Virus record (IMG/VR): IMGVR_UViG_3300021364_002464 | Coordinates: 1 to 23,756 of that record | DNA length: 23,756 nt | From: a virus | Strand: one strand, 5' to 3' | Part shown: positions 1,273 through 18,434 of the stretch, one piece after another | Position numbering within the stretch: the stretch's first letter is position 1 | Layout: each line of letters starts with the position of its first letter | Notes under the pieces: generated by a model | Told to the model about the DNA's origin: nothing | The model's input: the letters and a program-made list of their open reading frames with translations, nothing else | Databases searched by the model: none | Program-made: the position numbers and the translations under genes

Positions 1273-1611
1273 ATGGCAGCAGGAACATATGACATCGTTA
1301 TTGATCAGGGGTCGGACTTTGCAATAGAAGTTCAGGTCAAGGACGACGACACCCCTCAAAATCTAGCTACGCATAGTGCGAGGGCTCAGTTACGTCCCAC
1401 ACCTACATCAAGTACGCTATCCGCTACATTTACCTGTGTTATTACCAACACGTCTCAGGGAAGAATAAAAATGTCTCTGAGTAACTCAGTTACAGCTGGT
1501 ATTACTTCAGGAAAATACTATTATGATTTAGAGTTAGTCAATACAAGTACAAGTACTGTTACAAGACTACTCCAGGGGGTTGCTCGTGTGACTCCAGAAG
1601 TTACAAGATAA
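1273..1611 (+). CDS. BppU-like baseplate/tail protein
   Basis: This 112-residue protein is the first gene after the consensus promoter. Its N-terminus (GTYDIVIDQGSDFAIEVQVKD, written here without gaps only to show the pattern: acidic-Gly turn then alternating strand) resembles the N-terminal beta-sandwich of baseplate upper proteins (BppU_N type): a 'qGsdf.i.v.v.d...p.nl' opening, a variable middle, then KYYYDLELVN and a closing strand RLLQGVARVTPEV. No catalytic motif is present. The likely role is attachment of fibres or a small baseplate domain. Its stop TAA shares its last base with the next ATG. Family assignment is by pattern, not by search. Confidence 0.6.
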   Translation: MAAGTYDIVIDQGSDFAIEVQVKDDDTPQNLATHSARAQLRPTPTSSTLSATFTCVITNTSQGRIKMSLSNSVTAGITSGKYYYDLELVNTSTSTVTRLLQGVARVTPEVTR

Positions 1612-3762: not shown

Positions 3763-4095
3763 ATGGCATCAGCATTTAAATCAGCAACCTCAGCTAGTGT
3801 AGGGACAAGTTTAACTACAATATATACTTGCCCTTCTAATACCACAGTTACAATCATTGGTTTGTATCTGTGTAATCAAGCAGGGGCTCAAATAGAAGCA
3901 ACAGTGGAGTTTTATGACTCTAGCGCAAACGCGCACGTGGGAATCGTACACCTTGTAGAGATTCCTGGGCAATCTACTCTTGCACCAATAGGTGGGGACG
4001 CAAAAGTCGTATTAGAAGCGGGTGATGCCATAAAAGTACAAAGTAATACGGCAAGTTCGATGGACGTAGTTCTCTCGTATCTGGAGCAAACATAA
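3763..4095 (+). CDS. Small beta-rich structural protein, 110 residues
   Basis: The gene starts four bases after the previous stop, with AGGA upstream. The sequence alternates strand-like stretches (TTIYTCPSNTTVTIIGLYLCN; GAQIEATVEFYDSS; VVLEAGDAIKVQSN; SMDVVLSYLEQT). This pattern is common in small head- or tail-decoration proteins of marine phages that form a single jelly-roll-like domain. Two Cys are present but no metal or catalytic motif. The stop TAA overlaps the ATG of the long fibre gene, so expression is coupled to it. A fibre-associated or decoration role is inferred from fold impression and context. Confidence 0.6.
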   Translation: MASAFKSATSASVGTSLTTIYTCPSNTTVTIIGLYLCNQAGAQIEATVEFYDSSANAHVGIVHLVEIPGQSTLAPIGGDAKVVLEAGDAIKVQSNTASSMDVVLSYLEQT

Positions 4096-6599
4096 TGCCA
4101 TTAATAGGTAAGGTACTCGTACAAGAAGAAGCAATTGCTGGGAACTCCGTTACTGCTACTAAGGTGGCAGCAAATGCTATTAGCACTTCTGAAATAGCAG
4201 TAAATGCAATTACTAGCTCAGAAATTGCAACGAATAGTATTCAAAGTACTCACATTCAAGGTACTGCAGTAACTTCAGTAGCGGATAATTCAATTGATGC
4301 AGCTGCTATTGCAGAAAACTCAGTAGATTCAAGTGAGTTAGTATCAGGAAGCATTGATACCATCCATATTGCAGCAGCACAGGTAACACTAGCAAAACTT
4401 GCAGTAAACTCTGTAAATGCAACAAAGATTATAGCAGGATCAGTTACAGCAAGTGAACTAGCAGATAATGCTGTTACAGGTGCAAAACTTGCAGAAAACA
4501 CAGTAGACTCTAGTGAGTTAGTTACTGGAAGTATTGATACTATTCATATAGGAAATCAGCAAGTAACTACTGCAAAATTAGCAAACACAGCTGTTACTAC
4601 TGCAAAAATTACAGACGGTAATGTAACAGGTGCTAAGCTAGGAGCTAACTCTGTAACAAGTGCAAAGATTGCTGCTAACTCTGTAGATTCTTCAGAATTA
4701 GTAAGTGGAAGTGTAGACACTATCCATATTGCAGACAACAATGTAACAAGTGCAAAGATCGCATCAAATAGTATTTTAACAAGACATATAGACGATAACC
4801 AAATCACAAGCGATCAAATAGCGGCGAATACAATTTTAACAGGAAATATTGCTGATAACAATATTGACAGTTCTAAGATAGCTTCCGATTCTATCTTAGC
4901 AAGACACATTTTCAACGGTGTGGTAGGCACTGCTAAAATTGCGGATGACGCGGTTACAAATGCGAAAGTCGCAGATAATGCCATTGACAATGTGGCTATG
5001 ATTGCTGACGGACTCATTAACACAGCACAGTTGGCTGGTAACTCAGTTGCAACAGCAAAGATTCAAGACAATGCAATCAACTCAACAAAGATTGCAGCAA
5101 ACGCAGTAAGTTCTAGTGAGTTAGCAAGTGGTGCGCTTTCTGGACAGACGATGACAGGAAATGTGACTTTCTCTGGAAATGTAACAATTTCAGGTACACA
5201 ATTTACTGCTTCATCAAGTACAATTACAACCGGCGATGGTTTGATATTGTTAGCAGATAGTAACAATAGTTCAGACGCGGTTGATATCGGGGTATACGGA
5301 CTATACGATACCTCTGGGTCACAAGACTTATACTCTGGTCTTTTCAGAGATGCTTCTGATTCAGGAAAATGGAAATTATTCAAAGACCTACAAACAGCTC
5401 CTACCACTACAGTAGATACTACTGGTACGGGTTATGCAGTAGGCACGCTTGTTGGAAATGTAGAAGGTAACGTAACAGGAAACCTTACAGGTACAGCAAG
5501 TGCAATTGCAAACAATACAGTAAATGCAAGTAAGATTGTTGCGGGTAGTGTAACAACAGCAGAGATTGCTGCAAACACTATTGCTACTGGAAACGTAGCA
5601 GACAACGCTATTGATGGTACAAAGATTGCTTCAAATAGCATTTTAACTCGACACATTGATGACAACCAAATTACTTCAGACCAAATTGCAGGTAATACAA
5701 TTTTAGCAGCAAACATTGCTGATAATAATATTAATTCTACTAAAATAGTAAGTGATGCAGTTCTCAATAGACATATTGCTACAGGAGCAGTAAATGCTGA
5801 TAGCTTAGCTGCAAACTCAGTAGATAGTGCAGAGCTTGTAAGTGGAAGTATCGACAGCATACATTTAGATAGTGGTGTTGTAACTAATGCAAAATTAGCA
5901 AACAACGCTGTTAATGGTTCAAAAATTTCAGCAAACTCAATTGATAGTTCAGAGATAGCTACAGGCAGTATTGACACTCTTCACTTAGCTAGTGTTGTAG
6001 TAACTACAGCTAAATTAGCAAATAATGCAGTAACAGCAGCTAAGATAGCAGGTAACGCTGTTGGCTCAAGTGAGATTGCAGAAAACGCCGTTGGGGCAAG
6101 TGAGATTGCAAATAATGCTATCACAACCACACAACTTAGTAGTGCAGCACTCGCTGGTAAGACAATGTCAGGCACTGTTACCTTTAGTGGCAATGTAAGT
6201 ACAAATGCTTTAGTTACTGGCGGTAATATTGGATTACAAGATACTAATCCACCACAAAAACTATCTATCGATGAGGTTGCTGGCTTCGATGTCGCCACAG
6301 GCACAAGTTCAGCTACAACTACATTTACTTTAGACTCATTTAGTAGCTCAACATTTAGAGTTGCTAAGTATGTCGTTTCGATAAAAAATACAACTGATTC
6401 AGACTATCAGGCATTGGAAATCTTACTTTTCCATGATGGCACTACAGTTTATTTAACACAATACGCGTCCATTTTTGATAATGGAGCGCAAGCAACTTTT
6501 GACGCAGATATCAGTGGAGGTAATGTAAGACTCCGCGTGACACCTGCTTCAACAGATAGTATGACTTATAAAGCTATAAGAACTACTATAGAGGTATAA
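4095..6599 (+). CDS. Long tail fibre with decapeptide repeats, 834 residues
   Basis: Most of this protein consists of decapeptide repeats of the form N-x-[VI]-x-[ST]-x-x-[IL]-A-x. They form one block at about residues 17-346 and a second at about 473-685. The blocks are separated by an ordinary beta domain (about 350-470, including GDGLILLADSNN and GLFRDASDSGKWKLFKDL). A C-terminal domain (about 705-834; VAKYVVSIKNTTDSDYQALE, later ATFDADISGGNVRLRVTP) is of the type seen at the tips of marine phage fibres. The decapeptides probably build a trimeric shaft and the C-terminal domain probably contacts the receptor; both are inferred. The start overlaps the preceding stop (TAATG). Long repeats make the gene prone to length change by recombination. 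Confidence 0.85.
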   Translation: MPLIGKVLVQEEAIAGNSVTATKVAANAISTSEIAVNAITSSEIATNSIQSTHIQGTAVTSVADNSIDAAAIAENSVDSSELVSGSIDTIHIAAAQVTLAKLAVNSVNATKIIAGSVTASELADNAVTGAKLAENTVDSSELVTGSIDTIHIGNQQVTTAKLANTAVTTAKITDGNVTGAKLGANSVTSAKIAANSVDSSELVSGSVDTIHIADNNVTSAKIASNSILTRHIDDNQITSDQIAANTILTGNIADNNIDSSKIASDSILARHIFNGVVGTAKIADDAVTNAKVADNAIDNVAMIADGLINTAQLAGNSVATAKIQDNAINSTKIAANAVSSSELASGALSGQTMTGNVTFSGNVTISGTQFTASSSTITTGDGLILLADSNNSSDAVDIGVYGLYDTSGSQDLYSGLFRDASDSGKWKLFKDLQTAPTTTVDTTGTGYAVGTLVGNVEGNVTGNLTGTASAIANNTVNASKIVAGSVTTAEIAANTIATGNVADNAIDGTKIASNSILTRHIDDNQITSDQIAGNTILAANIADNNINSTKIVSDAVLNRHIATGAVNADSLAANSVDSAELVSGSIDSIHLDSGVVTNAKLANNAVNGSKISANSIDSSEIATGSIDTLHLASVVVTTAKLANNAVTAAKIAGNAVGSSEIAENAVGASEIANNAITTTQLSSAALAGKTMSGTVTFSGNVSTNALVTGGNIGLQDTNPPQKLSIDEVAGFDVATGTSSATTTFTLDSFSSSTFRVAKYVVSIKNTTDSDYQALEILLFHDGTTVYLTQYASIFDNGAQATFDADISGGNVRLRVTPASTDSMTYKAIRTTIEV
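4143..5133 (+). repeat. In-frame 30-base (decapeptide) repeat block 1 of the long fibre
   Basis: About 33 consecutive ten-residue units, for example NSVTSAKIAA, NSVDSSELVS, GSVDTIHIAD, NNVTSAKIAS, NSILTRHIDD. A super-pattern NSVDSSELVS-GSxDTIHIxx recurs several times, which points to duplication of multi-unit segments. One unit (NAIDNVAMIAD) has eleven residues. Confidence 0.9.
5511..6150 (+). repeat. In-frame 30-base (decapeptide) repeat block 2 of the long fibre
   Basis: About 21 further ten-residue units of the same consensus. The segment SNSILTRHIDDNQITSDQIA is shared word for word with block 1, which indicates that one block was partly copied from the other. Codons differ between the copies, so the duplication is not recent. 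Confidence 0.88.
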
Positions 6600-6836: not shown

Positions 6837-9800
6837 ATGGCCATATATGTCAACGATGGTGGCACTTTAAGACAGTTACGTTTTCTAGCAGTAAACGATA
6901 ACGGTACTATAAGACGTGTCAACGAAGTCTATGTAAATGATTACGGCAACCTTGAGGGGCCGTTTTCTGCTGTGCATGGAACTATAAGGTCAACTAATAC
7001 TCAAACCACTTTTATCTCAGGCACACAAGAAACTGCTTTCGCAACAACTACTGCCTACGATACTACTAGAGATACTACAACTACTTTTAATACGTCTGTA
7101 GGTACTACAACTACTTTTAATACAACTCGTACAACTACGAGTACTTTTGCTACAACTCGAGCAACCACTACTCAGTTTAATACAACTACGCAGTTTACTA
7201 CAACTACAACGTATGAGACTAATTTAAGTACGACAACTCTATTTAATACCGTTACAGCGTTTACTACAACTACGACTTATGAAACAACTAAGTCTACAAC
7301 TACGTTGTATAATACTACAACTAATTTTACAACAACTACGACTTATGAAACAAGTAAGTCTACAACCACACTATTTAATACAGTCACAGCGTATACTACA
7401 ACTACTACGTATGAGACTAATTTAAATACAACTACACAGTTCAGTACAACTACTAACTTTACAACTACAACCACGTATAACACGACGAGGGAAACCACTA
7501 CTACCTTTAATAGTAATACAACGTACACAACTACAACTACGTTTAATACTACTAGGCAGACAACTACAGTATTCAATACTCTTACTACTTTTAATACTAC
7601 TACGGTCTATGCGACCACAAGGACTACACAGACTAGCCGTAGTACTACTACAAACTTTACAACAACTACAACGTTTATTACTAGTAGGACTACAAATACT
7701 GTATTTAACACTACGACTAATTTTACAACAACGACGACGTACCTTACAAGTAGAACTACTCAAACAAGTAGGTCAACAACTACAGAGTATACTACTACTA
7801 CGACGTTCACTACCAGTAAGACTACAACTACAGTATTTAATACAGTTACTGAGTTTACTACAACGACTACTTATATTACAAGTAAGTCTACAACGACTAC
7901 GTACAATACAACTACTACTTATACCACTGCATATGATACTACGATTGAAACAAGTAGGAGTACTGGCTTTACGAATATTACAAGTAGAAGTACAAATACA
8001 TCGTTTAACACACAGTTTATAGCAAGTACAACTAGAAGTACGAATACTTCCAATAATACTCAGTTTATTGTAAACACTACAAGAAGTACGAATACTTCAT
8101 ATAACACAAGTTTTACAAATACTACGAATAGAAACACTAATACTTCGTACAATACTAGCTTTACAAATAATACTACAAGAGGTACAAATACTTCTTATAC
8201 TACTAGCTTCAATACAAATACAGCTAGAACTACTGATAACGTAATTGTAAATACTTCTTACAACACTAATACTTCTAAAGTAACAGATGGTGTAACTGTA
8301 ATCACATCATTTACTACGAATAGAAACACTAATACTTCATTTATTACTAGCTATAATACAAATACAGCTAGAGTAACAGATAGTGTAATTGTAAGTACTG
8401 GATATAATACTGCTATTAATACTAACACTTCATATATTACTAGCTTCAATACAAATACTGCTAGAGTAACAGACAGTGTAATTGTAAGTACTGGGTATAA
8501 TACAAATGTTAACACAAATACTTCGTATATTACTAGCTTCAATACAAATACTGCTAGGACTACTGACAATGTAATCGTAATTACAAGTAGAAGTACTTCG
8601 TACAATACAAATACTTCATTTAGTACAAATACGACTGCTACTAACAATACAAATACTAGCTTTATTGCGAATACTGCGTATAATACTTCTACAACTAGAA
8701 ATACGAACACAACTTACATTGTAAATACAGCGTATAATACAAGTACAAGTAGAAATACAAATACTACAGCAATTGTAAGTACAAATACAGGTGCTACTAA
8801 CAATACAAATACTAGCTTTATTGCAAGTACTTCGTATGGTTCTGGTACAAGTAGAACTACTGATGATGTAATTGTAAGTACAAACACAGGCGCTACAAAT
8901 AATACTAATACCAGCTTTATTGCAAGTACAGCATATGGCTCAGGTACAAGTAGAAATACAAATACAACTTACATTGCAAGTACATCATACGGCTCTGGCA
9001 CAACTAGAAGTTCAAATACTTCATATATCGTAGGTACTTCTTATGCAACTTCAAGAACTACAGATGGTGTAATTGTAAGTACAAGTTTCAATACAGCATA
9101 TGGAACTTCAAGAAGTACAAATACTTCCAGAAGTACAACCACAGGTTTTGCAACTATTGTAAATGCATATAATACTACCAGACTCACCGCATACCAGGTG
9201 ATCACTATGTATGCAGGCCCGGAAGGTTCAGGCCCAGTTGCTATTATTACAAATACTTCTAATTATACAAGTTATCTAACAGGTATTGTTGCAATTATTA
9301 TTACATCTAATAATACTGCATTAGCTGCTGTAAACACTTCGTATAATACTACAAGAAGCACAACTAGAAACACTAACACTTCGTATTCTACCAACTATAA
9401 CACGACGAGGAACACGAATACAAGTGGTACTGCAAATACTGCGTATAATACTTCTACAACTAGAAATACAAACACAAGTGCAATCGTAAGTACCGCATAT
9501 AATACTTCTACAACCAGAAATACAAATACAACAGCAATTGTAAGTACTAATACTGGATTTACAAATAATACAAATACTTCGTTTGCAACTGCGTACAATA
9601 CTTCTACAACTAGAAATACAAATACTACAGCAATTGTAAGTACTAATACTGCATTTACAAACAACACAAATACTAGCTTCATTGCAAGTACCGCTTATGG
9701 TTCAGGTACAAGTAGAAATACAAATACGAGTGCTATTGTAAGTACTTCATACGGATCAGGTACAAGTAGAGGATCAAATACAAGTGCGATTGTAAGTACG

Positions 9801-11573
9801 AATACTTCATTTACAAATGTAACTGATAGTGTAATTGTAAGTACAACTAGAAATACAAACTATAATACGAATACTTCGTTTATCACTTCATTTACTAATA
9901 TTACAAGTAGAACTACTGACGGTGTGATTGTAATTACAAGTAGAGCTACAAGTAGGAATACTAACACTTCTTACACTACTAGCTTTACAAATATTACAAG
10001 TAGAACTACTGATGAAGTAATTGTAATTACAAATAGAGCAACAAGTAGAAATACTAATACTTCGTATACTACTTCCTTTACTAATATTACAAGTAGAACT
10101 ACTGATGGTGTGATTGTAAGTACAAACTATACTACTTCACAAAATACGAATACTTCGTACAATACCAGCTTTACAAATGCTACAACTCGAGGTACAAATA
10201 CTTCATTTATTACTTCCTTTACTAATATTACAAGTAGGGTTACTGACGATGTAATCGTAAACACTACCTATTCTACAAATACTAGCAGAGTAACCGATGA
10301 AGTTATTGTAAGTACAAACTACAGTACAAATACTAGCAGGGTAACTGATGATGTAGCAGCGATTACTACATTTAACACAAATACTAGCAGACTTACACAA
10401 TATGCTGCTACAACTTCGTACAATACGAATACAAGTAGGCTGACTGATAATGTAGCTGTAATTACAAGTTTCAATACAAATACGAATAGAACTACAACAT
10501 ATGAAACTACTTATGAGACTTCAAGAGCAAGTAGTAGAGCAACATCTACAAGTAGATCAACAGTAACAAGCTTTAATACTACAAAATCTACTGCAACAAG
10601 TCACAGTACTGCTACAAACTTCGATACTACAACTAGTTATAATACAACTAGAGCTACAGGTACAAGTAGAGCAACTACAACTGCATTTGGTACTACAACA
10701 ACATTTAATACAAATACTACCACTGCAAGTAGTAGAGATACTTCTACAAACTTTGACACCACTACTAGCTATAATACTACGAAGTCTACAGCAAGTAGTA
10801 GAGCAACTACAACAGCATTTGGTACAACAACTACATTTGATACAAGTAAGTCTACTTCAAGTAGTAGACAAACTTCTACAAACTTTGAGACTACCACAAC
10901 TTACGCTACAACATTAGGTACTCTTACAACTAGAGCGACAGCTACAACTAGAGCGACTGATACTGTATTTAATACAAATACAACTACAGCAAGTAGCAGA
11001 CAGACTCAAACAACTAGAGGAACTGATACTGTATTCAATACGAATACTACAACAGGTACAAGCAGACAAACAGGTACAAGTAAATCTACAACTACTGTTT
11101 ACAATACTAATACAACTACAGCAAGTAGTAGAGCAACTGGCACAAGTAAGTCTACTTCTACAGTATTTAATACTACAACTACTACAGCAAGTAGTAGAGC
11201 AACTGGTACAAGCAGAGGCACAGATACAGTATTCAATACAAATACTACTACAGCAAGTAGTAGAGCAACGGCTACAAGTAGGTCTACAACATCTACCTTC
11301 AATACTGATAGAGATACTACGACCACATTTGAAACCACTAATGCAACAGGCTCAGTATATGCTACAACTAGATCGACAACATCTACATTCGGCACAACTA
11401 GAGTTACAGATACAACGATAACAACGGATCATCTGACGACTATTGCAACCGCAACAGGAACTCAGATATTTGAAAGAATAACAGCCTCTCAGGCAGGAAC
11501 GATTTTTGACACAGAAGTGTCGAGTGGTGAGGACTACGGTGCTTCCTTCTGGGATGGTAACCAATGGAGTTAA
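6837..11573 (+). CDS. Giant Thr/Asn/Ser-rich repeat protein, 1578 residues, probable fibre or adhesin
   Basis: AAGGAG at 6825-6830, six bases before ATG 6837, fixes the start. Residues 1-40 hold three copies of a short motif (YVNDGGTLR, AVNDNGTIR, YVNDYGNL) that I associate with phage tail proteins. From about residue 70 nearly all of the protein is low-complexity repeats. Ten-mers come first, then 22-mers (about 120-365), then a mosaic of 31-, 18- and 17-mers (about 370-1215), then 22-mers again (about 1218-1500). Thr dominates (around 40% by eye), with Asn, Ser, Tyr/Phe and regularly spaced Arg/Lys. I see no Cys, Pro only near residue 42 and in the centre, and Trp only in the last residues. 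A non-repetitive insert with YAGPEGSGPVAI lies at about 781-831, close to the midpoint. The C-terminus (EDYGASFWDGNQWS) looks like a distinct tip. An extended beta fibre is inferred. Confidence 0.85.
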   Translation: MAIYVNDGGTLRQLRFLAVNDNGTIRRVNEVYVNDYGNLEGPFSAVHGTIRSTNTQTTFISGTQETAFATTTAYDTTRDTTTTFNTSVGTTTTFNTTRTTTSTFATTRATTTQFNTTTQFTTTTTYETNLSTTTLFNTVTAFTTTTTYETTKSTTTLYNTTTNFTTTTTYETSKSTTTLFNTVTAYTTTTTYETNLNTTTQFSTTTNFTTTTTYNTTRETTTTFNSNTTYTTTTTFNTTRQTTTVFNTLTTFNTTTVYATTRTTQTSRSTTTNFTTTTTFITSRTTNTVFNTTTNFTTTTTYLTSRTTQTSRSTTTEYTTTTTFTTSKTTTTVFNTVTEFTTTTTYITSKSTTTTYNTTTTYTTAYDTTIETSRSTGFTNITSRSTNTSFNTQFIASTTRSTNTSNNTQFIVNTTRSTNTSYNTSFTNTTNRNTNTSYNTSFTNNTTRGTNTSYTTSFNTNTARTTDNVIVNTSYNTNTSKVTDGVTVITSFTTNRNTNTSFITSYNTNTARVTDSVIVSTGYNTAINTNTSYITSFNTNTARVTDSVIVSTGYNTNVNTNTSYITSFNTNTARTTDNVIVITSRSTSYNTNTSFSTNTTATNNTNTSFIANTAYNTSTTRNTNTTYIVNTAYNTSTSRNTNTTAIVSTNTGATNNTNTSFIASTSYGSGTSRTTDDVIVSTNTGATNNTNTSFIASTAYGSGTSRNTNTTYIASTSYGSGTTRSSNTSYIVGTSYATSRTTDGVIVSTSFNTAYGTSRSTNTSRSTTTGFATIVNAYNTTRLTAYQVITMYAGPEGSGPVAIITNTSNYTSYLTGIVAIIITSNNTALAAVNTSYNTTRSTTRNTNTSYSTNYNTTRNTNTSGTANTAYNTSTTRNTNTSAIVSTAYNTSTTRNTNTTAIVSTNTGFTNNTNTSFATAYNTSTTRNTNTTAIVSTNTAFTNNTNTSFIASTAYGSGTSRNTNTSAIVSTSYGSGTSRGSNTSAIVSTNTSFTNVTDSVIVSTTRNTNYNTNTSFITSFTNITSRTTDGVIVITSRATSRNTNTSYTTSFTNITSRTTDEVIVITNRATSRNTNTSYTTSFTNITSRTTDGVIVSTNYTTSQNTNTSYNTSFTNATTRGTNTSFITSFTNITSRVTDDVIVNTTYSTNTSRVTDEVIVSTNYSTNTSRVTDDVAAITTFNTNTSRLTQYAATTSYNTNTSRLTDNVAVITSFNTNTNRTTTYETTYETSRASSRATSTSRSTVTSFNTTKSTATSHSTATNFDTTTSYNTTRATGTSRATTTAFGTTTTFNTNTTTASSRDTSTNFDTTTSYNTTKSTASSRATTTAFGTTTTFDTSKSTSSSRQTSTNFETTTTYATTLGTLTTRATATTRATDTVFNTNTTTASSRQTQTTRGTDTVFNTNTTTGTSRQTGTSKSTTTVYNTNTTTASSRATGTSKSTSTVFNTTTTTASSRATGTSRGTDTVFNTNTTTASSRATATSRSTTSTFNTDRDTTTTFETTNATGSVYATTRSTTSTFGTTRVTDTTITTDHLTTIATATGTQIFERITASQAGTIFDTEVSSGEDYGASFWDGNQWS
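7194..7930 (+). repeat. 66-base (22-residue) tandem repeats, N-terminal block
   Basis: Units such as TYETTKSTTTLYNTTTNF + TTTT recur at exactly 66-base spacing (ACT/ACG-TAT at 7275, 7341 and 7407). Aromatic residues fall at fixed positions (2, 12, 18 of the unit) and Lys/Arg usually at position 6. Ten-residue units (TTTFNTTRTT type) precede this block at about 7050-7190. Confidence 0.9.
8385..8570 (+). repeat. 93-base (31-residue) repeat, first occurrence
   Basis: Two adjacent units beginning VIVSTGYNT at 8385 and 8478, exactly 93 bases apart, each containing NTNTSYITSFNTNTAR followed by a TDS/TDN turn. Degenerate relatives lie on both sides. Confidence 0.85.
9421..9640 (+). repeat. 54-base (18-residue) repeats
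   Basis: Units of the form STAYNTSTTRNTNTSAIV recur two or three times around 9430-9540 and again at about 9590. They are interleaved with STNTGFTNNTNTSF segments that also occur, slightly diverged, near 8780-8900. Confidence 0.75.
9903..10181 (+). repeat. 93-base (31-residue) repeat, second occurrence
   Basis: Three units starting TSRTTD at 9903, 9996 and 10089, exactly 93 bases apart, each followed by a VIV strand and RNTNTSYTTSFTNI or a close variant. The same length as the array at 8385 suggests that 31 residues is a structural period. Confidence 0.9.
10230..10481 (+). repeat. 51-base (17-residue) repeats
   Basis: Five units starting TSRVTD or TSRLT at 10230, 10281, 10332, 10383 and 10431. 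The spacing is 51 bases except for one 48-base unit. Each ends in NTN or STN. Confidence 0.9.
10614..11320 (+). repeat. 66-base (22-residue) tandem repeats, C-terminal block
   Basis: TNF/TAF-starting units lie at 10614, 10680, 10746, 10812 and 10878, exactly 66 bases apart. A later set with GCAAGTAGTAG at 11121, 11187 and 11253 has the same 66-base spacing and is nearly identical at DNA level. The consensus (x-x-F-x-TTT-x-Y-x-TT-R/K) aligns with the N-terminal 22-mer block, so the protein has the same repeat class at both ends. Confidence 0.9.
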
Positions 11574-11574
11574 A

Positions 11575-11748
11575 ATGTCAAAAATTAGGAATAATGACGA
11601 AGGAATTACGGCAGAGTTCGTAAACGATAAATTAGAGCAAATACTATCTGCACTATTTGATACACTAGAGCATAACCAAGATAGAATTAAAGCACTAGAA
11701 ACACAGGTTCATAAATTGACCAAGGAATTAAGAAATGGGAAAGCTTAA
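11575..11748 (+). CDS. Small coiled-coil protein, 57 residues
   Basis: The likely start is ATG 11575, one base after the stop of the giant repeat gene and five bases after GGAG (11566-11569). An in-frame ATG at 11506 exists but lies inside the repeat gene. The product has a heptad-like pattern (FVNDKLEQILSALFDTLEHN, later RIKALETQVHKLTKELRN), so most of it should be one amphipathic helix forming a coiled coil. No other motif is seen. It overlaps the following gene by 14 bases. Its position right after a fibre suggests a trimerisation or assembly factor, but that is inference. Confidence 0.7.
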   Translation: MSKIRNNDEGITAEFVNDKLEQILSALFDTLEHNQDRIKALETQVHKLTKELRNGKA

Positions 11749-12613
11749 AGCTCTATCTAAAAACGAAGAGCTAGGAGATATACCAACTCACTTTATGAAG
11801 TCCGGTAGCAGTATGCCACCGCAAGACCGACTAAATACTTTATTAGAATTTCAAAGACGAGTTCTTCCCAAAAAGTATAAAGGTCTAGATGTAGAGTATG
11901 ATATTTGGTATAATACTAATGAACTAAATACAATTAGGACTTGGCTATATACAGATTTTATAGGACAAGGAATTTATCTTCGAGTAAATACGGTAAAGAT
12001 AAATGATAGACTATTAGATAATATAGTAGCCGATCCAGAACAAAAAGTCGATGAAGATAGAATTGCCAGAATAACGGCAGGACTTAGTGATAAGTACACA
12101 CTAGGAGGTATGGAAGAAACTTACGATAAAGTAGCTTTTCCTCCAGGTAGTAACTTATTAAGTAAAAACATTATTAATTGGAAACGATTAGGTGAATTAG
12201 TAGAGGATGGATTTGTAATCAAACCGCATCCAATTACTGCACACGTTTTTATAGCCAAAATGAAACATAGATTTGGTAAAGATAAAGTTTTAAATAAAAT
12301 GTCGGGCGGACATGAAATTTTAGCAGCCTGTAAAGAGCTTGCTTTCTGCCCAAACAGTGAAATGGGAATGACAGGATTATTATTAGGAAAGAAAATACAT
12401 TCTTTTGCTATCCCACGAACTGCAAGAGAGAAGAATCACTTGACGTATGAATCTATATATCATGCAATACAAGGACAAAAATCTTCTACTCTCGCATTAA
12501 AGAAAATACTTTCTAGCCCTAGAGCTGGTATAGTTTTTCCGTTCGATCCTGATGCAGAAGATAGAGTACAAAGGTATTTCGATAACTTTTGGGAAATGAC
12601 ATTTAAAACATGA
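11735..12613 (+). CDS. Capsule/GT-B-like glycosyltransferase-family protein (tentative)
   Basis: This 292-residue protein starts inside the end of the coiled-coil gene behind AAGGAA. Its second half has features of GT-B-type capsule and Kdo/glycerophosphate transferases: VIKPHPITAH at about 161-170, then a short strand and CPNSEMGMTGLLLGKKIHSF at about 205-224. This matches the pattern 'KPHP ... S-E-x-G-x-x-x-x-L-x-G-K-x-V' that binds the nucleotide-sugar phosphate in those families. The N-terminal half is not recognisable. It has no signal peptide or membrane segment and is therefore probably cytoplasmic. The neighbouring Thr-rich protein could be a substrate, but lipopolysaccharide or DNA modification is equally possible. 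The assignment is by motif only. Confidence 0.5.
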   Translation: MGKLKALSKNEELGDIPTHFMKSGSSMPPQDRLNTLLEFQRRVLPKKYKGLDVEYDIWYNTNELNTIRTWLYTDFIGQGIYLRVNTVKINDRLLDNIVADPEQKVDEDRIARITAGLSDKYTLGGMEETYDKVAFPPGSNLLSKNIINWKRLGELVEDGFVIKPHPITAHVFIAKMKHRFGKDKVLNKMSGGHEILAACKELAFCPNSEMGMTGLLLGKKIHSFAIPRTAREKNHLTYESIYHAIQGQKSSTLALKKILSSPRAGIVFPFDPDAEDRVQRYFDNFWEMTFKT

Positions 12614-13584
12614 TAGATATAATTATATTAGCAGAACACTACGGACTAGACTATACGCTGGCTTCTCTTTTGAAGAAGTCGGATAATTATCGTGTGCATA
12701 TTTTTGTTAGACCAACGATTCGAGACGACTTAGAAGCAGAACTACAATGGGCTCTTAAAAGCTTTAGAGAGTTATATATTTATCAAACTCCATTTAACCT
12801 CAAAGGAGAAAAGTCTAATAGGCTATCTCGTGTTATAAATCAGTTTAAAGAACACTGGAAGGATAAGCAACCTAAAGGACTGCCTATAGAACGAGTTATT
12901 GTAACTGTAGCTGGTTGTCGAATCTTTACAGGAGACTTAGCAAGAGATGTGCCTACGGTAGCACAAATGGGGAATAAAGTTGCATATTTTGCACGAGAGT
13001 TTAAATATGCAAAACACCCTACTTACGGAAACTACTATAACATTATTGGAATAGAGGAATACAATGCTGAAAACGTTGACCCATATTTTATGATGTTAAA
13101 TTGGGTTAAGTTTAAAGAGATAATGCACGATCAGAGATTGTGGTTTCCTGATGGTAAGGCAAAAAGATATCCTGAGCAAACAGATAAAGACTCGTATCTT
13201 CTTTCTACAAGAGATACTACATTTATTCCTAGAATTCGCTCGGCCTATGAATGGGGCTGGATGCCTTTATACTTCGACGGCAAAGTAGACAAGTTAATTA
13301 AGATAGAAGCAATTGGAGCAAAAGATTGTATTAATCATAATGTTATGATGAGAAAAAGTTTTTCTATCTCTGTACCAGTTCAAGAGTTAGTTACATCTTA
13401 TGAAGATATACCTACTCTTTGGAGTATGGCAGTGCCTTGGGATTGTTGGTCAAGTGTAATTGATGAAGTTCCTCTATCTATCCGTAAGCAAGGTTATAAT
13501 GAACAAATACTAATTAAGGCCGCAAAACAGAAGAAGCATTTAGCTGCAGTAGTCAAAGCGGGGTATCTACTAGGAAAAGTCTGA
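12610..13584 (+). CDS. Unidentified protein, 324 residues
   Basis: The ATG overlaps the preceding TGA (ATGA), so it is coupled to the glycosyltransferase-like gene. The N-terminus (MIDIIILAEHYGLDYTLASL, then YRVHIFVRP) looks like the first strand-helix-strand of a Rossmann-type alpha/beta fold. A second such segment is RVIVTVAGCRIFTGDLA at about residues 97-113. The C-terminal third is rich in Trp and Tyr (LWSMAVPWDCWSSVIDEVPL). I see no DxD, KPHP or other catalytic signature. The context suggests a role in sugar transfer or in assembly of the fibre, but no function can be named. Its stop shares one base with the next start (TGATG). Confidence 0.7.
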   Translation: MIDIIILAEHYGLDYTLASLLKKSDNYRVHIFVRPTIRDDLEAELQWALKSFRELYIYQTPFNLKGEKSNRLSRVINQFKEHWKDKQPKGLPIERVIVTVAGCRIFTGDLARDVPTVAQMGNKVAYFAREFKYAKHPTYGNYYNIIGIEEYNAENVDPYFMMLNWVKFKEIMHDQRLWFPDGKAKRYPEQTDKDSYLLSTRDTTFIPRIRSAYEWGWMPLYFDGKVDKLIKIEAIGAKDCINHNVMMRKSFSISVPVQELVTSYEDIPTLWSMAVPWDCWSSVIDEVPLSIRKQGYNEQILIKAAKQKKHLAAVVKAGYLLGKV

Positions 13585-14225
13585 TGTTTAAACTACTGAA
13601 AGACATGATTTTCTTTAAACAAGGCGGAGGTATAGATACTCCAGCTAAGTTTATAGTAGCTACAAACGGTAAGTCTTTAGATAATACTGTTGAGCTATGG
13701 GCAAAAACAGAGGTAGGTAAAAGATACATCAATGGAGATAGAATAACCCATTATGTATATAAATATATGCACTCTGACCCAAATACTTTCGCAACGCTAT
13801 ATCTAGCATTTCATAAACACTACGGGGTAGAGAAAATAAAAAATTATTATCCCGAGAGTAGTACAAAATCAGTAGAGAAAGCTTTCAGTGCTTTTATCTC
13901 CGATACTCACGACTTCCTTCATGTTGTAACTGGCTATCCAACTGATGCAGTAGGAGAGCTTGCTAGAATAAGAGTTTTCTATGGTATGGAAGGTAGAGGT
14001 TGGCAACTAATTCATTGGATTATGAGAATCCGTTTTATGTTTGGTTGGTGGAGAAAAGAAAGGAAACTCTACTTTGATCTGCAGAAAGAAGCTACCGAGC
14101 AGTCAAAGGTGGTTCATAATTATATGTTTATGCCGTGGTTTGATATGTTAGGTTGGCATATCAATAAAGTTCGGAAAAATTTCAACACCCATGAAACAAC
14201 CATTCATCACTGGAAAAATACTTAG
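13584..14225 (+). CDS. Coq4-family (ubiquinone biosynthesis) protein
   Basis: This 213-residue protein carries the signature of Coq4 proteins, HDxxHx11E: H109, D110, H113 and E125 in HDFLHVVTGYPTDAVGE. These residues bind the divalent metal in the family. The flanks also fit: TEVGKRYI and DPNTFATLYLAFHKHYGV before the motif, and LARIRVFYGMEG, then a helical region, and PWFDMLGWHINKVRKNFN after it, at places where Coq4 proteins have comparable helices. Family members take part in removing or replacing the C1 group of the quinone ring, at the inner membrane with other Coq proteins. No transit peptide or clear membrane span is present; the W/F-rich segment 140-160 could touch a membrane. Its stop overlaps the end of the opposite-strand gene. 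Phage function is unknown. Confidence 0.82.
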   Translation: MFKLLKDMIFFKQGGGIDTPAKFIVATNGKSLDNTVELWAKTEVGKRYINGDRITHYVYKYMHSDPNTFATLYLAFHKHYGVEKIKNYYPESSTKSVEKAFSAFISDTHDFLHVVTGYPTDAVGELARIRVFYGMEGRGWQLIHWIMRIRFMFGWWRKERKLYFDLQKEATEQSKVVHNYMFMPWFDMLGWHINKVRKNFNTHETTIHHWKNT

Positions 14226-14234
14226 AACTCTAAG
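14214..14234 (-). terminator. Weak intrinsic terminator candidate for the - strand operon
   Basis: On the - strand a five-base-pair hairpin (CTTAG, loop AGTT, CTAAG; 14234-14221) covers the stop codon of the GT29-like gene and is followed by TATTTTT (14220-14214). The stem is short and AT-rich, so it may be weak. No other terminator is possible between the two convergent operons because the genes overlap. Confidence 0.3.
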
Positions 14235-14887
14235 ACTTCGTCCTCAAGATCCGAAAGGATTTCCCAATGAATAATACCTTCATTAGCTAATTCAAGTACA
14301 AACTCTTTTTCAATTGCTACGTTATGAGGAATTGTATCTGTGGTATTTTTAGGCAAATGCCAACTGTACGGATTTTGTTGCCCTACTTGAAACGGGGCTT
14401 GCTTACTAAAGAAATCAAATCCAATCAGCGTTAATTTATTCCAAACCCATGCTTTACGAATCAACCAGAGTAATACGATAAAACCGTTCGAAGGTCTGCC
14501 AAGAAGTTCATTATTCACATACCCAAACTCTTCGTAAACTTCCAAAAGCTCATCATCTGAGAACATTGTACAATGTGGTAACTCTATATCAAGCGATCTT
14601 GCTGAGTTCAGATTCATACGGGTACGGTTCAATAACACAGGAGTATCTTTCCAACTTTCAGGAAACTTCTTCCAAGTACCGTGTCTTAGAAATCCCGTTG
14701 CCCATATATCCATCTTTTTACCAATATGCTCGGTATGTTTATGCGGAATACCTCGGCCCAAACGTATTACAACATCATGTCCATCTATGTATTCTGCGTT
14801 ATCATGGTCAAGCATTTCAACGCTGTTGCCTACAAGACAAACAGTTTTGTTTTCTAAGAGTTTAGTGATTCGTGTAAATTGATCCAT
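14222..14887 (-). CDS. GT29-like glycosyltransferase (sialyltransferase-type motifs)
   Basis: The 221-residue product shows the three sialyltransferase-type motifs. The L motif is at about 16-45 (VCLVGNSVEML, then EYIDGHDVVIRLGRG), the S motif at about 131-160 (RPSNGFIVLL, then LTLIGFDFF), and the VS-type motif at about 188-193 (H188, N189, E193). These bind the CMP-sugar donor in CAZy family GT29. It is much shorter than animal enzymes and has no membrane anchor, as in other viral members, so it is probably cytoplasmic. Its ATG lies 34 bases inside the preceding GT8-like gene. The acceptor is unknown: virion protein, phage DNA or host surface glycan are possible. Confidence 0.78.
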   Translation of the reverse strand: MDQFTRITKLLENKTVCLVGNSVEMLDHDNAEYIDGHDVVIRLGRGIPHKHTEHIGKKMDIWATGFLRHGTWKKFPESWKDTPVLLNRTRMNLNSARSLDIELPHCTMFSDDELLEVYEEFGYVNNELLGRPSNGFIVLLWLIRKAWVWNKLTLIGFDFFSKQAPFQVGQQNPYSWHLPKNTTDTIPHNVAIEKEFVLELANEGIIHWEILSDLEDEVLEF

Positions 14888-15495
14888 TCTTCTGCGTAAG
14901 GTTGGTCACGGTAATCTTCAAGCCATGGCCCACCGTCCGTAAAGTGAACAGCTTTTGGGTTGAGCATGTTGTAATAACCGATCATGTGATTATAAGTTGC
15001 GGGAATATTTCCAATCTTGTTTGCCCACTCAAAGCCATGCAACGCACCCGCTGGGGCTTCGTTCACATACTCTGGTGTAAGTGTTTTACAAGCGGAATTA
15101 TTGAAAAGCATTAGTGATGACCAATACTTTCGGGGATACGGACGATTTGTTTTGCCGTCCATTTTAGTAAATGTGCTAGTGACTAACTTGGGGTGTTTTA
15201 CCACTGAGACTGTCATAAACATAGCTATGTACTTTGACAACTCGCTGGGGTTTGACCTCCAAAGAAAGTCACCGTCACAAAATAATGATAACCCTTTGTA
15301 ATCGGATAGATAAGGAACTAAAAAGCGAGTAAAGGCGAAATCAGTTGATTCGCCTTGATACTCTCTAGTGTACATATCCAGATTCTTTTTACGAAGTGGA
15401 CGAATATCATGGTGTTCGCTAAAACGTTCGATACTTGCCTTACATACTTCGTAAGACTCTGGATACTTTTCTTCATATCCGATAAAGATTATCAT
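14854..15495 (-). CDS. GT8-like glycosyltransferase
   Basis: This 213-residue protein has the layout of a small GT-A enzyme. It starts with the strand MIIFIGYEEKYPESYEVCKAS. RFLVPYL (57-63) is followed by FCDGDFLW with a D-x-D metal motif (D74, D76). Then come YWSSLMLFNN (about 124-133), comparable to the 'YFNSGVML' segment, and VHFTDGGPW (about 183-191), comparable to the second metal/donor loop 'HFxGxxKPW' of GT8. No signal peptide or membrane segment is present. The ATG overlaps the TGA of the small gene upstream (ATGA). Together with the GT29-like gene it forms a sugar-transfer pair at the operon's end. The sugar donor and acceptor cannot be read from the sequence. Confidence 0.72.
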   Translation of the reverse strand: MIIFIGYEEKYPESYEVCKASIERFSEHHDIRPLRKKNLDMYTREYQGESTDFAFTRFLVPYLSDYKGLSLFCDGDFLWRSNPSELSKYIAMFMTVSVVKHPKLVTSTFTKMDGKTNRPYPRKYWSSLMLFNNSACKTLTPEYVNEAPAGALHGFEWANKIGNIPATYNHMIGYYNMLNPKAVHFTDGGPWLEDYRDQPYAEEWINLHESLNS

Positions 15496-16667: not shown

Positions 16668-18434
16668 TTATCCCTCACATGCTAAGCAATCTTGTTGTTC
16701 AAAGATTACTTCTCTTTTAACTAAGTTAGATACTACATCTGCTCGAGAGATAGCCTCTGATCTTAGGTAATATAACGTTTTTAAATTCTTTGCCCATGCA
16801 AGCATATGAATATTATGTAAATCCAATTTGCTAACATCAGGCGGGAAAAATAGATTCACACTTTGAGATTGACAGATATATTCCTGTCTTACTGAAGCGT
16901 GTTCTACTACCCATGACTGATTGAGTTCAACTGCTGTCTTAAACACCATTCGTTCCCAGTCAGACAACTGTTCCAAGTGTTGTACACTTCCTTTGTTTAC
17001 AACTATACTTTTCCAAGTCTCTTCATTGTTAATCATATACTTATCAAGAACTTTTTCTAAGAATTTGTTCTTGTGTAGATTTGAACCTGACTTGGTTTTT
17101 TGATTGAACGCATTCGCTCTGAATGGCTCAATACTTGGACTTGTGTTACCACAGATGATACTAGAGGAAGCATTGGGTGCGATAGCAAGTAGGTGGGCGT
17201 TCCTAACTGTACAAGTGTCATCATCTGGACACGCACCCTTTTCAACTGCTAGCTTCCTTGTTGTTTCAACTGCTTCATGTTTGATAAACTCAAACATTGT
17301 ATGATTTGCTCCTGTCGCTTGTGCACTTTCAAAAGGTATATTGTTCTTCTGAAGATAAGCGTGGAATCCCATTGCTCCTAGTCCAATACTTCTTTCGCGC
17401 ATTGCACTAAACTTAGCTTTCTCAAGCTGTGTAGGAGCGTTATCAATAAATGATTGTAGTACGTTATCTAACATTCTCACCAAGTCTGGAATGAAAGCTG
17501 AGTGCTCTCTCCATTCGTCAAAATATTCTAAATTGACACTAGAAAGACAGCACACAGCCGTTCTTTCTTCATCGGTGGCGAGTGTAATTTCTGAGCATAA
17601 GTTACTATGATGTATTTTCATTCCCTTACGCTTCTGAAAGTCAGGAAGTCCTGCATCTACTGCATCTTCAAACATTATGTACGGCTCGCCAGTTTCCATT
17701 CTATTTTGTAGAATTTTTACCCATAACGCTCTCGCACTTACTCGCTTCTTGACTTGTCCTGAGTGAGGATCGATAAGATCCCAGCCGTCATCAAAATCAG
17801 GATGCTTTGTAGCGGAGTGTATGAGCTCCATGAAACTATCAGGAACCACCACACCGTGATGAAGATTGATAGATTTACGATTCGTGTCACCACCCGTTGG
17901 TTTTCGAACATCTAAAAACTCCTCTACTTCGGGGTGACTTATATGTAGATAACTTGCATAACTACCTCTACGGGTAACACCCTGTGAGAATGCAAGCATT
18001 TCTGCGTCTACAACTTTAATAAACGGTATCACACCAGTACTTTCAGAACCTTTTGATGTCTTAGTTCCTGCAGAACGGACATCACTCCAAGTTCCTCCAA
18101 TACCACCACCAAATGATGAGAGATAAGCATTCTCTACGTAGTGGTCTGTAATACCTTCTCTGCTATCATCAACATAGTTGAGGAAGCAGCTAATTGGTAG
18201 CCCTCGTTTTGTACCACCGTTTGACAGAACTGGTGTAGCAAACATGAACCAAAGATTGCTGACATAATCATACAATCTTTGCGCATGAGCATCATCATCT
18301 GCAAACGCTTCAGCGGCACGAGCAAAAGCCTCTTGGGGTGAAGTTTCATCACCAACCATGTAACGGTCTCTTAGAGTTGCAATAGCAAACTCGTCAAGAA
18401 GCGCATCTTTTGAATAATCAATTTTTACTGACAT
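16668..18434 (-). CDS. nrdA: Ribonucleotide reductase class I large subunit (NrdA), without ATP-cone
   Basis: The catalytic subunit reduces ribonucleotides to deoxyribonucleotides. Visible residues are C83 (PISCFL) and C295 (AVCCLSSVNL) as the redox pair, N278/C280/E282 (NLCSEI) with the thiyl-radical Cys, and Y555/Y556 (LKTLYYLRSE) for radical transfer from NrdB. The C-terminal CLAC pair (C583, C586) shuttles electrons from thioredoxin or glutaredoxin. At 588 residues it is much shorter than the E. coli enzyme (761). The N-terminal ATP-cone is absent, so shut-off by dATP at the activity site is not expected. The start has GGAG four bases upstream, and the gene overlaps the exonuclease gene by 17 bases. 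Confidence 0.95.
   Translation of the reverse strand: MSVKIDYSKDALLDEFAIATLRDRYMVGDETSPQEAFARAAEAFADDDAHAQRLYDYVSNLWFMFATPVLSNGGTKRGLPISCFLNYVDDSREGITDHYVENAYLSSFGGGIGGTWSDVRSAGTKTSKGSESTGVIPFIKVVDAEMLAFSQGVTRRGSYASYLHISHPEVEEFLDVRKPTGGDTNRKSINLHHGVVVPDSFMELIHSATKHPDFDDGWDLIDPHSGQVKKRVSARALWVKILQNRMETGEPYIMFEDAVDAGLPDFQKRKGMKIHHSNLCSEITLATDEERTAVCCLSSVNLEYFDEWREHSAFIPDLVRMLDNVLQSFIDNAPTQLEKAKFSAMRERSIGLGAMGFHAYLQKNNIPFESAQATGANHTMFEFIKHEAVETTRKLAVEKGACPDDDTCTVRNAHLLAIAPNASSSIICGNTSPSIEPFRANAFNQKTKSGSNLHKNKFLEKVLDKYMINNEETWKSIVVNKGSVQHLEQLSDWERMVFKTAVELNQSWVVEHASVRQEYICQSQSVNLFFPPDVSKLDLHNIHMLAWAKNLKTLYYLRSEAISRADVVSNLVKREVIFEQQDCLACEG

Follow-up and report, generated by a model that had tools for sequence, protein, structure and literature searches.

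CdiA-type adhesins are secreted bacterial proteins built as a beta-helix, in which a receptor-binding region is located centrally in a very long chain. In the long tail fiber of bacteriophage T4, the distal needle domain D11 of gp37 is a homotrimer forming an antiparallel multi-stranded needle, in which each chain runs out through a first stem strand (residues 882-931), forms a receptor-binding tip of 28 residues (932-959) and comes back through a second stem strand (960-1009), both strands being 50 residues long with the tip at the exact centre (PMC6957217). This hairpin is inserted at the end of a fiber that is otherwise largely not of this kind, and its stem is marked by many HxH iron sites and by Gly and His (L097). 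T5 and DT57C have L-shaped tail fibers with an LtfC ring (PMC10713586, PMC4690869), fibers of this type being attached by an N-terminal strand or coiled coil, with the receptor domain towards the C-terminus.

The window, that is, the whole stretch of DNA analyzed here, is a 23,756-base virus record. On its plus strand, an uninterrupted frame of 1578 codons (6837-11573) encodes a protein of 1578 aa (36% T, 12% S and 12% N; T/S/N ~60%) which, judging from sequence comparisons, is probably a tail-fiber protein folded as one giant antiparallel beta-hairpin. Its parts follow each other in an order found in every family protein, namely N-cap, arm, joint, arm, variable tip, arm, joint, arm and C-cap:

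6837-6986, plus strand: N-cap, residues 1-50, with three VND.G modules, MAIYVNDGGTLRQLRFLAVNDNGTIRRVNEVYVNDYGNLEGPFSAVH; 71-79% identical in the family, 35 invariant columns; the probable base or attachment part.
6987-7922, plus strand: proximal N-arm, residues 51-362, aromatic-rich 22-residue repeats with TRF 66-bp arrays; in register with the proximal C-arm.
7923-7961, plus strand: joint 1, residues 363-375, TAYDTTIETSRST; motif [YFW]DT.[ILV].[TS], occurring a single time in the N half of each full-length homolog.
7962-9191, plus strand: distal N-arm, residues 376-785, 16-, 18- and 31-residue NTS/TDxVIV repeats with TRF 93-, 54- and 48-bp arrays; aligns antiparallel to the distal C-arm if small slips are allowed.
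9192-9272, plus strand: tip or turn, residues ~786-812, around QVITMYAGPEGSGPVAIITN; the part poorest in T/S/N, at 0.50 of the chain length, with the predicted fold axis at residue 798.
9273-10493, plus strand: distal C-arm, residues 813-1219, 18-, 31- and 17-residue repeats with TRF arrays; antiparallel alignment.
10494-10541, plus strand: joint 2, residues 1220-1235, TTYETTYETSRASSRA; the C half of 59/59 homologs contains this joint motif, which faces joint 1.
10542-11453, plus strand: proximal C-arm, residues 1236-1539, Arg/Lys-rich 22-residue repeats with TRF 66-bp arrays; length equal to that of the proximal N-arm minus 3 in 59/59.
11454-11573, plus strand: C-cap, residues 1540-1578 (~39 aa) and stop, IFERITASQAGTIFDTEVSSGEDYGASFWDGNQWS; 63-81% identity, with 34 columns invariant; likely to adjoin the N-cap at the fiber base.

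As in T4 gp37 D11, the chain of this putative tail fiber would run out, form a central receptor-binding tip and come back, and to the equal T4 stem strands correspond proximal arms matched in 59/59 proteins and a tip at 0.50. However, the arms are here 7-15 times longer than the 50-residue T4 stem arms (roughly 330-780 residues) and make up nearly the whole protein. The chemistry differs as well: the iron-coordinating HxH motif is absent from the window protein, in which His accounts for ~0.2%, and Thr together with aromatic-Arg/Lys pairs takes the place of the T4 motifs. Like CdiA-type adhesins, this protein would contact the receptor by a part located mid-chain; unlike them, it would be a register-paired hairpin and not a beta-helix.

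Repeats span nearly the entire gene, far beyond chance. Of the periods which the first-pass annotation had reported, TRF recovered the 66-bp arrays (7193-7432, 7647-7893, 10625-10868 and 10931-11281) and the 93-bp arrays (8261-8626 and 9822-10159), with 54- and 48-bp arrays in between, and the 17-mer (51 bases) is visible at 10230-10383. The same annotation had assigned one 22-residue consensus to both ends, of which the period is indeed common and the consensus is not: N-side units are aromatic-rich (e.g., TTTTTYETSKSTTTLFNTVTAF), while C-side units (e.g., TTTASSRATGTSKSTTTVFNTN) have Arg/Lys at the positions facing the N-side aromatics. The two classes are complementary, not identical. What this reading overlooked is the mirror symmetry of the protein about residue 798.

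A search of IMG/VR with the 1578-aa protein as query returned 9 loci, and one with an N-cap alignment returned 128 stretches, from which 80 loci were taken. Together with the window, these loci were the source of 59 full-length proteins, distinct from one another and 742-1621 aa in length; every one is intact and has both caps. As many of them are close relatives, 23 representatives and a tree were used. The family appears so far only in metagenomic phage contigs. Neither Pfam nor PHROGs gave a match, in agreement with the first-pass view that no named family has this layout, and nothing was matched by megablast of the window or tblastn of the entire protein against phage records. With the N-cap and the C-cap, tblastn against 50,697 phage records gave only a weak N-cap match in Pectobacterium phage ZF40 (E 0.05), with no isolate carrying the family and no T5-like match to the Ltf/pb1 sequence family. 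PDB sequence searches with the entire protein and with the N-cap and C-cap profiles revealed no solved relative, and homology to gp37 found no match there or in PHROGs; a scan of bacterial genomes with the N-cap yielded no relative, and a description of the family was not found in the open literature searched.

The landmarks used below (joints and tip) were picked after inspection of four members, in which the only non-repeat stretch is central and two short conserved motifs, the joints, occupy mirrored places. The distance from N-cap to joint 1 minus that from joint 2 to C-cap is exactly 3 residues in 59/59 full-length proteins (322 and 319 residues for the window protein), even though the proximal arm distance takes 15 distinct values between 118 and 386 aa. 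When C-arms were permuted among the 23 representatives, at most 10 matches were obtained (mean 2.6). The tree of the neighboring 292-aa protein implies 15 changes of C-arm length and at least 15 of N-arm length. It had also been considered that the array could be an assembly product. Homologs of other lengths on other contigs are all intact ORFs whose proximal arms match exactly, a match which a collapsed or expanded assembly would destroy; the array is therefore not an artefact of assembly.

The two arms are also related residue by residue. With residue i set against S-i, mutual information shows a sharp maximum at a single common shift, reaching 0.67 in proximal arms (median 0.24) and 0.245 in distal arms (~0.08), in contrast to 0.29 for parallel pairing and 0.27 for N-arms paired with C-arms from different proteins. 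At the peak shift, aromatics face Arg/Lys, and in the proximal arms aromatic-basic pairs are ~9-fold enriched while aromatic-aromatic pairs are nearly absent. With a scoring matrix learned from other proteins, the register was held from base to tip in seven members (L061, L058, L031, L079, L073, L018 and L069), and a scan of all axes, using a matrix which included the four proteins scored, favored the predicted axis over any other in L061 (579 vs 48), L018 (286 vs 19), L069 (246 vs 11) and L031 (390 vs 15). In the window protein, the aromatic-basic pair count is maximal (43) at the predicted axis, and whole-arm alignment scores +189 antiparallel, -180 parallel and -71 to -133 after block permutation. 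Its proximal arms keep a strict register; slips of 1-5 residues are needed in the distal arms of this protein and its clade, where some segments scored with the held-out matrix lack a clear register and odd-length repeats disrupt parity (61-69% of large residues on one parity), making the distal-arm register of this clade less certain. In L018 (7001-9658), the Arg-rich units are on the N side and the aromatic-rich units on the C side, a swap in which the register is retained. In a clade comprising L006 (5116-9315) and L007, the distal arms contain many GAHTNN units and the proximal C-arm TTCTFN units, regularly spaced His and Cys residues for which metal binding or disulfides may be possible.

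Length changes occur in pairs. Between L061 and L045, insertions or deletions of 22/22, 22/22, 32/32, 12/12, 12/12 and 6/6 residues are found at equal distances from the axis, and further mirror pairs separate L045 from L074 (22/22, 22/22, 12/12 and 12/12), L045 from L046 (4/4), L069 from L071 (12/12) and L089 from L077 (200 vs 180+20). The last two loci have near-identical neighbor proteins and differ by ~200 residues in each distal arm, which is a recent near-doubling on both sides. Differences of 20-30 aa in one arm only, clearest in near-identical contigs (L002/L003, L057/L058, L036/L037 and L074-L076), may be due to assembly collapse or to real mismatch.

The centre of the chain is where two ways of pairing the arms part. 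In 58/59 proteins, the 16-mer poorest in T/S/N is located at 0.45-0.55 of the inter-joint segment (median 0.500). A straight chain whose N-arm pairs with the C-arm of another copy would form an antiparallel homodimer, and its two-fold axis at the centre would give the mirror symmetry, predicting equal arms, register and paired indels just as well as a hairpin does. However, the centre is turn-like: within 12 residues of the axis, Pro reaches 3.0% vs 0.1% in the arms (30-fold), Gly amounts to 7.8%, and PEG and DPE motifs (GPEG, DPE.G, PEGG) occur within a few residues of the axis. It is also the most variable part, strongly divergent between members whose caps are 63-81% identical, as would fit an exposed tip. 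Furthermore, a homodimer would place the conserved caps at opposite ends of a rod of which just one end can attach to the tail. On this evidence, the homodimer is unlikely, and the equal arms, register, two faces, mirror-paired indels and turn-like centre observed in these proteins most likely reflect pairing within one chain and not between two antiparallel chains, the Pro-rich, turn-like centre favoring the hairpin.

The alternation of residues along the arms bears on a second possibility. A beta-solenoid, ice-binding-like or tailspike-like, in which each repeat would be one coil stacked in parallel on the next, has in its favor the TxT repeats and the periods of 17-31 residues, which are typical coil lengths; a parallel with ice-binding TxT solenoids had been raised in the first-pass annotation as no more than a hint. 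Nevertheless, parallel pairing of the arms scores far below mirror pairing, the co-varying, equal arm lengths would be left without a reason, and neither the pairing nor the indel lengths agree with the parallel stacking of fixed-length coils which defines TxT solenoids and ice-binding proteins. Nearly every F, Y, R and K of the proximal arms falls on the same face, which contains T 57, F 13 and R 10%, and the opposite one is occupied by A, N, D, E, V and G. This parity of the large residues is continuous across repeats of differing length; in L061, over ~1,500 residues in all, 215/215 large residues (F/Y/W/R/K) are on one parity within each arm segment. Indel lengths are even in 98/115 cases in the strict clades and include 2, 4, 6, 8 and 12 residues, which are not whole coils. 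Unbroken parity and even indels are needed by an extended strand and not by a coil, which makes the solenoid a very improbable solution and the hairpin strands the preferred one. Aromatic and basic residues holding one parity over hundreds of residues also bear out the earlier proposal of a long regular beta fiber.

That proposal finds further backing in the gene neighborhood, as the gene comes directly after tail-fiber genes in all homologs with enough flank. The plus strand upstream encodes an LtfC-like protein, additional fiber proteins and an 834-aa tail-fiber protein; downstream, the opposite strand carries GT29-like, small-protein, ribonucleotide reductase, 5'-3' exonuclease, recombination-type and peroxiredoxin genes. 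The main neighbors are:

1273-1611, plus strand: 112-aa LtfC-like protein (L-shaped tail fiber attachment/assembly family); PHROG 3304 E 8e-18, Pfam LtfC E 2e-5, just below cut-off; 19/19 loci with flank.
4095-6599, plus strand: 834-aa A-I repeat tail-fiber protein; PHROG 892 tail fiber E 4e-86; directly upstream in 31/31 homolog loci with enough flank.
11735-12613, plus strand: 292-aa conserved protein, possibly a glycosyltransferase or assembly factor; downstream in 58/58 loci; PHROG 26179 (annotated unknown), no PDB match.
12610-13584, plus strand: 324-aa conserved protein; downstream in 56/56 loci; no PDB match.
13584-14225, plus strand: Coq4-like protein (ubiquinone biosynthesis) in a phage fiber neighborhood; Pfam match weak, yet above cut-off.
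14222-15495, minus strand: GT29-like protein (sialyltransferase family, E 2e-7) and small GT8-looking protein; next to the fiber in 31/31 and 14/15 loci, respectively.
16668-18434, minus strand: ribonucleotide reductase large chain; 62-65% identical to pelagiphage proteins.

PDB and NCBIfam searches of the neighbor proteins assigned no function. The two glycosyltransferase-like genes, together with a T/S/N content of ~60%, would fit a stalk of the mucin type, disordered, rich in Thr/Ser and devoid of defined strand pairing, which the products of these neighboring genes might O-glycosylate. AlphaFold2 monomer predictions gave very low confidence as well, with pLDDT of 27.1 for a full 776-aa homolog and 29.5 for a 121-aa central piece, from alignments of 12 and 3 sequences, respectively, and with the arms as edge strands in the monomer; because these were monomer-only predictions from very few sequences, the low values were not taken to mean only disorder, and they weigh neither for nor against the hairpin. 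Disorder, for its part, needs no residue-exact arm equality, two-faced alternation or mirror-paired indels, and such a stalk has very little chance of being the right description. A structured hairpin fiber may itself be glycosylated, and O-glycosylation of its Thr/Ser-rich chain could be envisaged from its gene context. As for an extracellular or aggregation fiber of the infected cell (curli-like) in place of a virion tail fiber, it is scarcely credible: although a related phage has CsgF, CsgG and a secreted repeat protein, these curli-type genes lie elsewhere in its genome, the hairpin gene is within a tail-fiber operon, after fiber proteins and the LtfC-like protein, and its N-terminus MAIYVNDGGTL, read by eye, is unlike a signal peptide.

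In the related 105-kb contig G001, the fiber genes come just after that for a 2687-aa tail-tip-like protein; the contig also encodes a tape measure, a fused protease/head protein and a T5-like terminase (49% to Pectobacterium phage My1). The most likely placement of the phage is among siphophages related to the T5 group and, for the window, a stretch without terminase, it rests on this relative. A T4-like phage had been considered and was dropped: no Gp23 match was found in 12 related contigs (the control genomes gave no match either), and the G001 terminase is T5-like. Given this terminase and the LtfC-like protein of the window, the tail type is probably the same as that of T5 and DT57C. The presence of an LtfC partner is shared with T5-type Ltf/pb1 fibers, from which the present protein differs in that its caps would both lie at the base, with the variable part mid-chain. 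The pelagiphage-like ribonucleotide reductase is a weak hint of a SAR11-like host. G001, which is the contig of L076, also contains (45776-49257, locus L093) genes for CsgG (Pfam E 4e-49), CsgF (E 3e-19) and a FecR-domain protein, adjoined by a secreted-looking 237-aa Asn/Asp-rich repeat protein, which by these matches is a curli-type secretion set in a putative siphophage; CsgF and CsgG have been reported in pelagimyophages (PMC7029224).

In the proposed hairpin, the chain would exit the base at the N-cap, extend over ~750 residues as a Thr-rich strand, turn at the short variable tip near residue 798 and return in register to the C-cap, beside the N-cap. In the proximal part, residues i and 1596-i would face each other, and the distal part of the window protein would require small slips. 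One face of the ribbon would display Thr and F/Y opposite R/K, as a cross-strand cation-pi ladder, and the other face Thr, Ser, Ala, Asn and Asp, while the two facing joints would split the fiber into a proximal and a distal segment. By analogy with T4 gp37, three hairpins may associate. The virion fiber would measure ~250 nm (750 residues x 0.33 nm), with both caps at the tail and the tip in contact with the host receptor. To our knowledge, such a protein would be far longer than any solved beta-hairpin. More generally, we consider it likely that this marine phage family builds its tail fiber as an uninterrupted two-stranded antiparallel beta-ribbon per chain, with up to ~700 residues per strand and a single register, and that this fiber evolves mainly by mirror-paired indels in both arms.

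If this is correct, strand pairing could be read from sequence alone, through equal arms, an F/Y vs R/K alphabet and mirror-paired indels. The latter would parallel, at the protein level, the compensatory changes of RNA stems, and would amount to an arm-length ruler for a receptor-binding tip, raising the evolutionary question of how two widely separated regions of a gene come to vary in length together. The family would also provide a simple, length-programmable beta-fiber. For this uncultured marine phage group, the host-contact site would be the central tip and not the C-terminus, that is, a place where annotation would not look.
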